A stretch of 64,000 nucleotides of DNA from Ectothiorhodospiraceae bacterium WFHF3C12 (GTDB lineage: Bacteria; Pseudomonadota; Gammaproteobacteria; Nitrococcales; Nitrococcaceae): contig JACDUA010000015.1 of the NCBI GenBank assembly GCA_013519935.1, forward strand, positions 1 through 64,000, in the 5' to 3' direction. The notes below the pieces were generated by a model. That model saw only the letters and a program-made list of their open reading frames with translations, ran no database searches and was not told the origin of the DNA. A program made the translations under genes and the position numbers. This document shows, piece by piece, positions 8,972 to 51,949 of this stretch (the first letter of the stretch is position 1; every line of letters begins with the position of its first letter).

Positions 8972-9174
8972 AGCCACAGATGGACACGGAATGGTTCAGC
9001 CACAGATGAACACAGATGTGGGTTGCTTCCTGTGGAAACGTAGACCCCGGCGCCTGGCATTCCGGTGTCCAAGGCCGGCAAATCGCAGCGCTGTCATCGT
9101 TCCCGCGTGTTCACCCGGCCCGGTGCCCAGATCCGAGCCGCACAATCTGTGTTTATCTGTGTTCATCCGTGGCT
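8972..9174. repeat. Composite dispersed repeat with inverted ends
   Basis: The left end carries two tandem copies of the AGCCACAGATG motif (8972-8990 and 8998-9021). The right end, 9144-9174, is the inverted copy. About 120 bp of unrelated sequence lie between. It fills the whole space between the xthA stop and the ubiD start. It belongs to the family also seen at 18766, 20701, 27368-27574, 33879-34153, 43264-43580 and 51919. Confidence 0.85.
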
Positions 9175-17413: not shown

Positions 17414-18763
17414 ATGGCCCAGCATTACGATCTCATTTGTATCGGCGGCGGCAGCGGCGGCATCGCCACGGCCCGTCGAGCGGCCGGTTACGGCGCGAAA
17501 GTGGCGGTTATCGAGCAGTCCCGCCTGGGCGGCACCTGTGTGAACGTGGGCTGCGTGCCCAAGAAGGTGATGTGGAACGCCGCTCATACCGCGGAGCTCA
17601 TGGAGCGGGCCGGCGACTTCGGATTCGAGACCGGCCCGGTGGCGCTGGACTGGTCCACGCTTCGGGAACGCCGGGCGGCCTATATCGAGCGGCTCAACGG
17701 CATCTACGGCACCAATCTGGACAAGTCCGGCGTGGATCTCTATCGCGGTCAAGCCCGGTTCGTGGAATGCCGGACGCTGGAGGTGGACGGTGAGCGGATT
17801 GCCGCCGACCACGTGGTTATCGCGACGGGTGGACGGCCGGTCTGGCCACGCATCCCGGGGGCCGAGCTCGGTATAGATTCCGACGGCTTCTTCGAGCTAA
17901 CAGAGCAGCCGGGCAGGGTGGCGGTGGTGGGCGCCGGTTACATTGCCGTGGAGCTGGCCGGGCTGCTGCACCAGCTGGGCAGCGACACCCGTCTGGTGAT
18001 TCGCCACGAGGAGCCGCTGCGCAGCTTCGACCCCATCATCCGCGAGGCTTACATGGCGTCGACGCAGGTCTCGGGCCTGGAGGTGGTGACCCACGCCCGG
18101 CCCGAGTCACTGGAGCGCGGCGCGGATGGACGGCTGACCCTGCACGTGGGCGACGACCGGCGGCTGGAGGGGCTGGACACCGTAATCTGGGCCATCGGCC
18201 GCGAGGCCAACGTGGACAGCCTGGGGCTGGAGGACATCGACCTGCATCGGGACCACAACGGGCATATCCCCGTGGACCAGTGGCAGTGCACGGCCGTGGA
18301 GGGGGTCTACGCCATAGGCGACATCACCGGCCGGTTTCAGCTCACGCCCGTGGCCATCGCCGCCGGCCGGCGTCTGTCCGACCGACTGTTCGGCGGCAAG
18401 CCGGAGCGGTATCTGGAGTACCGGAACATCCCCTCGGTGGTCTTCACCCATCCGCCCATCGGCACCGTGGGCCTGACCGAAGACGAGGCCCGAGACGAAT
18501 ACGGCGAGGCGGTGCGGACCCACGAGGCCCGCTTCGTGCCCATGGATTTCGCCCTGGGCGAGACCAAGTACCGCAGCGCCATGAAGCTGGTGACGGTGGG
18601 CGATGAGGAACGCATCGTGGGGGTGCACCTGTTCGGCGTCGGCTCCGACGAGATGCTCCAGGGCTTCGCCGTGGCCGTGCGCATGGGCGCCACGAAGGCG
18701 GACTTCGACGACACCGTGGCCATTCATCCCACGGCCGCCGAAGAGCTGGTAACCATGGGATAA
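17414..18763 (+). CDS. gor: Glutathione reductase
   Basis: FAD-dependent disulfide reductase that regenerates GSH from GSSG with NADPH. The 449-residue product has the FAD GGGSGG loop, the redox pair C42/C47 in [13 protein letters not shown], and the second nucleotide loop [11 protein letters not shown]. The basic residues of [12 protein letters not shown] that follow fit NADPH preference. The C-terminal [11 protein letters not shown] carries the active-site His-Glu of the partner subunit. The GCVPKKVMW sequence after the cysteines separates it from lipoamide dehydrogenase, which has GCIPSK. A dispersed repeat begins 3 bp after the stop. Confidence 0.95.
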
Positions 18764-18765
18764 CC

Positions 18766-18795
18766 AGCCACAGATGAACACGGATGGACACGGAT
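18766..18795. repeat. Solo AGCCACAGATG repeat arm
   Basis: A single full-length copy of the ~30-base repeat (AGCCACAGATGAACACGGAT, then GGACACGGAT), three bases after the gor stop. No inverted partner was found before the carbonic anhydrase gene; instead a REP family 1 hairpin lies 175 bp further on. The intervening sequence (about 18862-18945) contains a decayed family 2-like pair. Confidence 0.8.
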
Positions 18796-18969
18796 ATCAG
18801 CGGCCATTCGAGTGGGTGGCCTGCGGCAGATCGCTGGTGCGGGTACCCCGGCCCGGAATCGCGGCGAGGTCGTCGCGCCCCATGGTTTCGTCCGGCACCG
18901 AGGTTGATTGTGGTTTGTGGGAAGCGCGTCCCCGCGGCGATGTCCCGAATCGGTTCGTGGTTGAGCCGG

Positions 18970-19054
18970 GGCACCTGTAGGAGCGCCGCGAGGCGGGATT
19001 TGACTGGTCGGCCAGGGGCGCCTGATCGCGCCTTGCGGCGCTCCTACAGGTGCC
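18970..19054. repeat. REP-like inverted repeat, family 1
   Basis: Arms 18970-18995 and 19029-19054 are inverted copies with one mismatch, reading GGCACCTGTAGGAGCGCCGC into the loop. The element ends about 50 bp before the carbonic anhydrase ATG, so it lies in that gene's leader or promoter. It is related to 1075-1161 and 34033-34102. Confidence 0.85.
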
Positions 19055-19104
19055 GGGGGAATCAGCGCAGGAGCCCGGCCCCTGGCCGCGAAGGAGAAAG
19101 CCAC

Positions 19105-19635
19105 ATGATCCGCAGATTCGAGCAATACACACCATCCATCGCCGACAGCGCCTACGTGGACGAGTCCGCGGTGGTCATCGGCGACGTGGCCCTGGCCGAG
19201 GACGTCTCCATATGGCCCGCCGCCGTGCTGCGCGGCGACGTGAACTACATCCGCGTTGGCGCGCGCAGTAACGTCCAGGACGGCACCGTGGTCCATGTCA
19301 CCCATGCCGGGCCCTACACCCCGGAAGGCGGCATCCCGACGGTCATTGGCGAGGACGTGACCATCGGCCACAAGGCCATCATCCACGCCTGCACGCTGGG
19401 GGACCGCATCCTCATCGGCATGGGGGCGACGGTGATGGACGGGGCGACGGTGGAGTCGGACGTCATTCTGGGTGCCAACGCCCTGGTTCCGCCCAACAAG
19501 ACCCTGGAGTCCGGGTACCTGTACGTCGGCAGTCCCGTGAAGCAGGCCAGGGCGCTGACGGACAGCGAGAAAGAATACCTGGTCTATTCCGCACGTCACT
19601 ACGTGCGGCTCAAACAGCGCCACGAGAAAGGCTGA
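19105..19635 (+). CDS. Gamma carbonic anhydrase family protein
   Basis: A 176-residue left-handed beta-helix protein of the YrdA/PaaY-type gamma carbonic anhydrase group. Hexapeptide turns run through the chain. Histidines suited to the trimer-interface metal appear in VHVTHAG and IGHKAIIHACTLGD, and RGDVNYIRVGARSNVQDG is the family signature. It may hydrate CO2, but many members lack measured activity. AAGGAG lies 8 bases before the ATG at 19105, which overrides a longer open frame reaching back into repeats. It is followed after 3 bp by the desuccinylase-like gene, so the two form an operon. Confidence 0.9.
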   Translation: MIRRFEQYTPSIADSAYVDESAVVIGDVALAEDVSIWPAAVLRGDVNYIRVGARSNVQDGTVVHVTHAGPYTPEGGIPTVIGEDVTIGHKAIIHACTLGDRILIGMGATVMDGATVESDVILGANALVPPNKTLESGYLYVGSPVKQARALTDSEKEYLVYSARHYVRLKQRHEKG

Positions 19636-20685: not shown

Positions 20686-20700
20686 AGAAGCCTCTCTTTT

Positions 20701-20729
20701 GCCGCGGATGAACGCGGATGCACACGGAT
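20701..20729. repeat. Solo AGCCACAGATG-family arm (diverged)
   Basis: A diverged copy reading GCCGCGGATGAACGCGGATG then CACACGGAT, 15 bp after the desuccinylase-like gene. No inverted partner was seen nearby. It is closest to the variant at 51919-51949, which suggests a second sequence subtype with GCGGATG in place of ACAGATG. Confidence 0.7.
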
Positions 20730-27367: not shown

Positions 27368-27574
27368 AGCCACAGATGAACACGGATGAACATAGATAGT
27401 ATCTCTTGGTCGAGCGCATCTCGCGGGACCTCGGCGAGGCATGATCCCCGATTGAGCCGGACCGGGCAGGTCGCGGCTCGTGCCGCTCCTAAAGGTGCCG
27501 CTGATCCCCGGCAGGAGCGGACCATGGTGGCGATTCCTCAGAATCATCTGTGTCCATCCGTGTTCATCTGTGGC
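27368..27574. repeat. Composite dispersed repeat with inverted ends
   Basis: Left arm 27368-27397 (AGCCACAGATGAACACGGAT...) and right arm 27542-27574 are inverted copies bounding a 207-bp unit. The interior contains a half-site of REP family 1 at 27471-27501 (TCGCGGCTCGTGCCGCTCCT); its partner arm is lost. The unit occupies the aroE-hemB spacer, 17 bp from the aroE ATG and 5 bp from the hemB stop. Confidence 0.87.
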
Positions 27575-27579
27575 TAAGC

Positions 27580-33878: not shown

Positions 33879-34153
33879 AGCCACAGATGAACACGGATGG
33901 ACACAGATTCTTGTTCTTGGCCCTATGCGGGCCAGGAAGGGCGCCGTGGGAGCGGCGACCCCGCCGCGAACGGTTTTGTGAGGAATCGCGGCGCGGTCGC
34001 CGCTCCCACGCGGGCTTCGATGGGGCCTTCTCGTAGGAGCGCCGCTAGGCGCGAGGGTTGGGTGTCGACTCCACAACGGATCGCGGCTTGCGCCGCTCCT
34101 ACAGGTGCCTGAACGCAACACGAATCTGTGTTCATCCGTGTTCATCTGTGGCT
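33879..34153. repeat. Composite dispersed repeat carrying both REP families
   Basis: The best-preserved unit. Terminal arms 33879-33909 and 34123-34153 are 31-base inverted copies with one mismatch. Inside are a REP family 2 hairpin (33946-33969 with 33986-34009, perfect 24-base arms apart from short differences) and a REP family 1 hairpin (34033-34054 with 34081-34102). The total length is 275 bp. It directly abuts the A-tract of the gltBD terminator on its right side. Confidence 0.9.
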
Positions 34154-34184
34154 AAAACAAAAAGAGGCGGCCAGGGGCCGCCTC
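34154..34184 (-). terminator. Rho-independent terminator of gltBD
   Basis: A 9-bp stem, GAGGCGGCC at 34164-34172 paired with 34176-34184, with a 3-base loop. On the minus strand it is followed by TTTTTGTTTT (34154-34163). It is about 40 bp past the gltD stop. Confidence 0.85.
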
Positions 34185-43263: not shown

Positions 43264-43580
43264 AAGCCACAGATGGACACGGATTTGTTCTACGGCAGGA
43301 CGGCCCAGTGCCGGCGCCGATGGGGACGCTGAAATACGCCCGCGAGCCTATGAGCCTCATAGCGCGGCTCCGGAAAGGCGGCGTTCGCGGTAAGTGGCCG
43401 TAGCAGCCGTACCCCTTTGCCAGAACGCCAACGCAGCAAAGGGCCGCGCCACGATCCGGCGTACGAGTCGTAGGACGCGCCTGCAAGGATTGCTCAGCGT
43501 CTGCGTGGCCCTGATCGCCACACTCCGCAGGGATGAGACATGCGTCCCGGAGTCCGTGTTAATCGGCGTTCATCCGAGGC
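43264..43580. repeat. Composite dispersed repeat (diverged ends)
   Basis: The left arm 43264-43286 (AAGCCACAGATGGACACGG) is good; the right arm 43551-43580 is a diverged inverted copy ending CATCCGAGGC. The ~265-bp interior has no clear REP hairpin and no gene. The unit lies between aroK and the pilQ terminator and, like the copy at 33879-34153, touches the terminator A-tract on its right side. Confidence 0.7.
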
Positions 43581-43583
43581 CAT

Positions 43584-51918: not shown

Positions 51919-51949
51919 AGCCGCAAATGAACGCGGATGGACGCTGATT
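51919..51949. repeat. Solo AGCCACAGATG-family arm (diverged)
   Basis: One copy reading AGCCGCAAATGAACGCGGAT then GGACGCTGATT, 9 bp after the nucleotidyltransferase-like gene. No inverted partner lies in the remaining 250 bp before the citrate synthase terminator. Confidence 0.75.

Follow-up and report, generated by a model that had tools for sequence, protein, structure and literature searches.

Dispersed inverted repeats as probable gene-less relatives of a minimal nuclease-encoding element

What are the short, paired repeats that recur throughout the 64-kb window (the whole stretch of DNA analysed, 64,000 nucleotides), and how might they have been dispersed? A 20-mer from the repeat arm, searched with at most three mismatches, found ten matches in the window versus 0.01 expected from shuffled sequences. 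The arm repeat is thus real, with arms at positions 8972, 8998, 9145 (minus strand), 18766, 20700, 27368, 27546 (minus), 33879, 34124 (minus), 43264, 43552 (minus, diverged) and 51919. Equally real are the four inverted pairs given in the preliminary description, at 8972–9174, 27368–27575, 33879–34153 and 43264–43581, although the second had been recorded as 27368–27574 and is one base longer. The element at 33879–34153 is complete and gene-less: its inverted arms, AGCCACAGATGAACACGGATGGACACAGAT on the plus strand (33879–33908) and AGCCACAGATGAACACGGATGAACACAGAT as read on the minus strand (34124–34153), enclose a 215-bp interior that consists largely of two nested REP palindrome pairs, namely GTGGGAGCGGCGACC...GGTCGCCGCTCCCAC at 33946–34009, which represents a separate repeat system, and a second pair of the GTAGGAGCGCC...GGCGCTCCTAC type at 34033–34103. 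An A-run adjoining the right arm (34154–34166) forms an AT-rich outer end, a conserved feature of the outer edges. Another complete gene-less element occupies 27368–27575, with arms at 27368–27397 (plus) and 27546–27575 (minus). In the element at 8972–9174, the left arm is doubled and partial (8972–8991 and 8998–9017) and the right arm lies at 9145–9174 (minus), and the degenerate element at 43264–43581 has a partial left arm (43264–43284) and a diverged right arm (43552–43581, minus). Single arms, all on the plus strand, are located at 18766–18795, 3 bp past the end of the ORF 17414–18763, and, in diverged form, at 20700–20729 (TGCCGCGGATGAACGCGGATGCACACGGAT) and 51919–51948 (AGCCGCAAATGAACGCGGATGGACGCTGAT).

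The genome from which the window derives (4.6 Mb, 168 contigs) contains at least 101 arms (27-mer, at most three mismatches), with none in the reversed control, and of the 40 genomes searched just one other contains a match. Inward-facing arms form 54 pairs of 120–1500 bp (median about 205 bp) with sharp outer edges, and the elements take up roughly 0.3% of the genome. The longest pair (1500 bp, L027 64–1563) encloses an IS110-like transposase ORF (366–1376) beside REPs, apparently as an insertion inside the element; the left arm of this element is enlarged by additional 10-bp units. The consensus of 118 arms, AGCCACAGATG[A/g]ACAC[G/A/C]GAT[G/A][A/G]ACAC[A/G/C]GAT, consists of three 7-bp CACNGAT heptamers repeated with a 10-bp period. 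Most columns are 92–100% fixed and the variation is concentrated in five columns, the wobble columns varying freely. The outer side of the arm is AT-rich, T predominating directly beside the arm (75–82% at the last two bases) and A prevailing 11–13 bases out.

Arms of the same pair differ at 3.98 positions and arms of different pairs at 4.00 (p 0.46). Copying of paired arms from each other is therefore rejected, and the lack of any within-pair likeness beyond that of random pairs argues against selected hairpin pairing and for each arm being read singly. A hairpin or RNA function is likewise rejected, given that the paired arms show no covariation and that no Rfam family matches anywhere in the window. 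The earlier suggestion of a retron-like unit finds no support in the window, which has no Rfam match, or in the interiors, which are too short for a reverse transcriptase.

The architecture recalls the REPIN-RAYT system, in which REP palindromes are associated with REP-associated tyrosine transposases (PMC3116915, PMC2817692). As in that system, one repeat-flanked copy holds a single protein gene and many gene-less inverted pairs lie in tandem or convergent intergenic regions. Mobilization of the present repeats as REPINs by a RAYT, that is, a Y1 transposase, might also be suspected from six Y1_Tnp matches in the genome and from the true REPs that reside within many elements. However, arms were found near none of the six Y1 loci in the flanks fetched, REPs lie near two of them (L010 and L011), and the arm consists of phased direct repeats and is not palindromic, its paired copies showing no hairpin covariation. 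Thus, RAYT/REPIN as the driver is largely refuted by the missing arms at all six loci, and we consider it highly improbable. GTAG-tagged REP palindromes are a known REP class (PMC3733652). They do occur in the elements described here, but as nested interior insertions and not as arms; REP palindromes of the GTAGGAGCG type are nested in about half of the element interiors, including that of the 33879–34153 element (33946–34103).

A gene linked to the arms lies outside the window. The preliminary description noted no ORF inside the repeats, which holds for the window but not for the genome, because at locus L051 (1112–1558) one arm pair encloses a complete GxxExxY gene, the start codon of which falls in the left arm (ATGAACACGGAT, MNTD). 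In the window, the listed ORF 18784–19635 would similarly begin within the single arm at 18766–18795. Judged by its profile matches, the L051 product clearly belongs to the GxxExxY/PDDEXK_3 family (PF13366, E 3e-41, 140.7 bits, cut-off 22; TIGR04256 of NCBIfam, E 1e-41, 142 bits, cut-off 35). This is the sole GxxExxY gene in the genome, and its location in an arm pair is unlikely to be due to chance because the elements cover such a small part of the genome. An AlphaFold2 model of a relative from Wenzhouxiangella limi, built on a 39-sequence alignment, has a mean pLDDT of 96.5, and the solved folds closest to it, SSO0001 (E 8e-4) followed by the AddAB nuclease domain, lambda exonuclease and LHK-Exo, are all PD-(D/E)XK enzymes, whereas no solved structure has a convincing sequence match to the protein. 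With D68, E78 and K80 invariant in the 39 sequences, the protein is predicted to adopt the PD-(D/E)XK fold with a D..ExK active site. The repeats of the window are probably gene-less relatives of a minimal nuclease-encoding inverted-repeat element, the full-length form of which (arm, GxxExxY gene, arm) has a median length of 474 bp. It differs from REPIN-RAYT, with its Y1/HUH enzyme, in the PD-(D/E)XK nuclease and the non-palindromic, phased-heptamer arms.

The association between arms and gene extends far beyond this genome. Scanning genome contigs with a GxxExxY alignment led to 80 loci that were fetched, spanning over a dozen bacterial phyla and a Methanosarcinales archaeal bin. Inverted phased-repeat arms with a score of at least 30 flank 56 of the 76 testable genes, versus 0.6% of 1569 windows of the same geometry at the same loci, and the highest score in 1520 shuffles was 30. 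The motif changes with lineage (CACAGAT, CGCAGAG, CACGAAG, ACAGGAT, CACGGAA, CGCAGAC) and the period of about 9–11 bp is kept. On a tree of 88 proteins, built from few columns, with many forks unresolved and a few arm-class labels set by hand, the four arm end classes (GAT, AAG, GAA and GAC) require 3 changes, the minimum possible; the mean under shuffling is 25.7, and none of 200 shuffles came as low as 3. Host relatedness alone is insufficient to account for this pattern because the two main classes, GAT and AAG, are both present among the GxxExxY genes of one bacterial family. Given that arms and gene travel together, the co-segregation amounts to co-inheritance, which is consistent with recognition of the arms by the nuclease but no proof of it.

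Exact arm matches number 2–144 in 21 of 24 GxxExxY-carrying genomes and are strand-balanced in most, with 0–2 in the reversed controls. Among 398 sampled genomes of the phylum, GxxExxY is present in 18 of the 23 with at least three arm matches versus 46 of the other 375 (p about 1e-11), an association partly confounded by phylogeny, most of the genomes coming from one family; inside that family it persists with p 0.001 for at least one match and 0.02 for at least three. The remark in the preliminary description that similar strings occur in unrelated genomes was correct and proved the principal lead, the strings being arms of GxxExxY nuclease elements.

Could the repeats instead belong to the host, as structural or regulatory intergenic elements akin to the protein-binding sites of the REP/BIME kind, with GxxExxY a mere passenger? 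Their placement would fit, 28 lying between tandem genes, 22 between convergent and only 3 between divergent ones, at some 19 bp from the genes by crude ORF calling; moreover, one genome lacking GxxExxY (G083) retains well-conserved arms at one site, and arms outlast interiors at most orthologous sites compared (see below). A host role does not readily explain why GxxExxY genes are arm-flanked across unrelated phyla, why the nuclease tree and not the host predicts arm class, or why whole elements are absent from sister species, and we regard it as unlikely. A further alternative casts GxxExxY as a defensive or toxic nuclease for which the arms would label self DNA or immunity sites. Defence systems often employ PD-(D/E)XK nucleases, and the arms are both constrained and numerous. 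Yet the gene stands alone between its arms, often amid housekeeping genes such as trpD–trpC, and truncated copies are frequent, which makes this alternative very improbable.

Comparison of sister species is consistent with movement of the elements. Site occupancy varies between such species and includes sites without an insert; no empty site with an exact junction turned up at high identity in this comparison. Sister species lack the elements found at hisA–hisF, the L224 site and elsewhere, and their flanking genes almost touch there; the inserted DNA reaches about 10 bp beyond each arm. The gene names used for these sites were read off the adjoining sequence. Within a single genus (G064/G087), the number of arms of one class ranges from 0 to 39 per genome, and a locus of this genus (L086) has a protein and arms identical to those of a Mariprofundus bin (L129). 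Three elements of genome G087 have a common interior. Between trpD and trpC, a GxxExxY element is found in several species, the site is uninterrupted in six, and G079 and G199 have a truncated or stop-bearing copy. The element lies within the trp operon of many species belonging to one genus, among them G087, G245, G060 and G115. At the L224 site, elements of unlike arm class are present in different species. Arms of mixed class, CACAGAT on the left and CTCTGCG on the right, occur in L272 (hisA–hisF of G199) and L269 (the L217 site of G167).

The original notion of a MITE-like mobilized unit holds in outline, in that the inverted ends are sharp, the elements are present or absent in sister species and an interior is shared in G087, but target duplications, which the preliminary description had proposed to look for, were not found (0 bp at 48 and 1 bp at 6 of the 54 pairs, with flank similarity equal to random), and the interiors in the window's genome are unrelated. 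MITEs of the usual kind, derived from a DDE insertion sequence and driven by a transposase elsewhere in the genome, would likewise be short, gene-less units with inverted ends of about 30 bp and a presence that varies between relatives. Such elements, however, are expected neither to lack target duplications nor to have unrelated interiors, and the only intact gene between arms is GxxExxY, the other enclosed ORF being the IS110-like one apparently inserted in L027; no DDE transposase was found as the resident gene. A whole sequence in common with an autonomous parent, by which MITEs are defined, was not found in the window's genome. We accordingly judge this possibility improbable.

The interiors deserve separate consideration. 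Genome-wide comparison bears out that the ends are conserved and the interiors differ: 21 interiors have no counterpart among the others, and the remainder match mainly via REP palindromes. An exception is formed by the interiors of 43264–43581 in the window and of L023 1466–1891, which have 122 bp in common (72% identity), a stretch that appears to be a further dispersed repeat. When 17 interiors were joined and compared with the genome, the matches were to themselves, apart from short REP-like matches to one interior, and an 862-base part used as query had no plasmid match; capture of the interiors from elsewhere in the genome or from plasmids is thus rejected. Remnants of GxxExxY were also rejected as their source in the window's genome, scores being lower than those of shuffled controls.

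Arm identity is 82–97% and interior identity 61–82% in three pairs of orthologous elements. In a fourth, at hisA–hisF (G087/G079), arm identity is merely 0.61 and that of the interiors is 53%, barely above the shuffled value of 49%. Two further pairs with high flank identity have interiors 99–100% identical, which indicates that interiors are not hypervariable and, therefore, that age, with the arms kept under constraint, is the most likely reason why the interiors in the window's genome are unrelated; their replacement is the less likely alternative. The ‘exchangeable cargo’ of the preliminary description finds no clear support: the interiors are single-copy and in two orthologous pairs look decayed rather than swapped, but in one more pair those found at a shared site are unrelated. 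As one nuclease gene faces more than 50 gene-less pairs, most present copies in this genome are probably old insertions with decayed interiors into which REP elements have inserted.

How could such an element move? Most likely, the nuclease, or a partner or complex, would read the roughly three heptamers of each arm, one helical turn apart, as duplex DNA, and the nuclease would cut at the AT-rich outer edges of the arms. Host repair would then integrate the unit in AT-rich DNA between genes, with no target duplication, and gene-less copies would be served in trans. We infer this nuclease-driven movement, including arm binding, cutting and joining, from several observations. Arms are associated with the gene, and their class segregates with the lineage of the nuclease; most of the GxxExxY genomes tested have gene-less arms in high copy number; occupancy varies in sister species; some whole units have been copied; the nuclease gene has decayed in situ; and the arms are better conserved than the interiors in three of the four orthologous pairs. 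Against it weigh the lack of target duplications and of exact junctions, the partial phylogenetic confounding of the genome-level association, the mixed-class arms, the arms of G083, the low arm identity at hisA–hisF and the fact that, unlike in ordinary MITEs, the interiors of gene-less elements in the window's genome neither are copies of one another nor contain any trace of GxxExxY. More tentatively, these elements might constitute a pan-prokaryotic mobile class with a single PD-(D/E)XK nuclease of about 120 residues, no transposase or recombinase, duplex phased-heptamer arms, joining by host repair and dozens of gene-less copies.

The open-access literature searched, in which two papers name GxxExxY without reference to repeats, contained neither a function or repeat association for GxxExxY (TIGR04256/PF13366) nor the arm strings; given the incomplete coverage of that literature, the link between the two is likely, though not certain, to be new. 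It accounts for the recurrence of one repeat string across microbial genomes that are not related, offers a testable function for a nuclease family that is widespread yet hardly described, and may place the element, operating without a transposase, among the smallest mobile elements that carry a gene.

Some minor observations concern the arms and their sources. L124, L158 and L170 derive from metagenome bins named Bordetella parapertussis and Chryseobacterium gleum, names that look doubtful. Relative to L223 2860–2945, the orthologous element in L252 is shorter by about one 10-bp unit in the right arm, which suggests slippage of the phased motif. Finally, an extreme expansion comprising many head-to-tail arm units (ACACAGATAA) is found at G064:C1:232588-232675.
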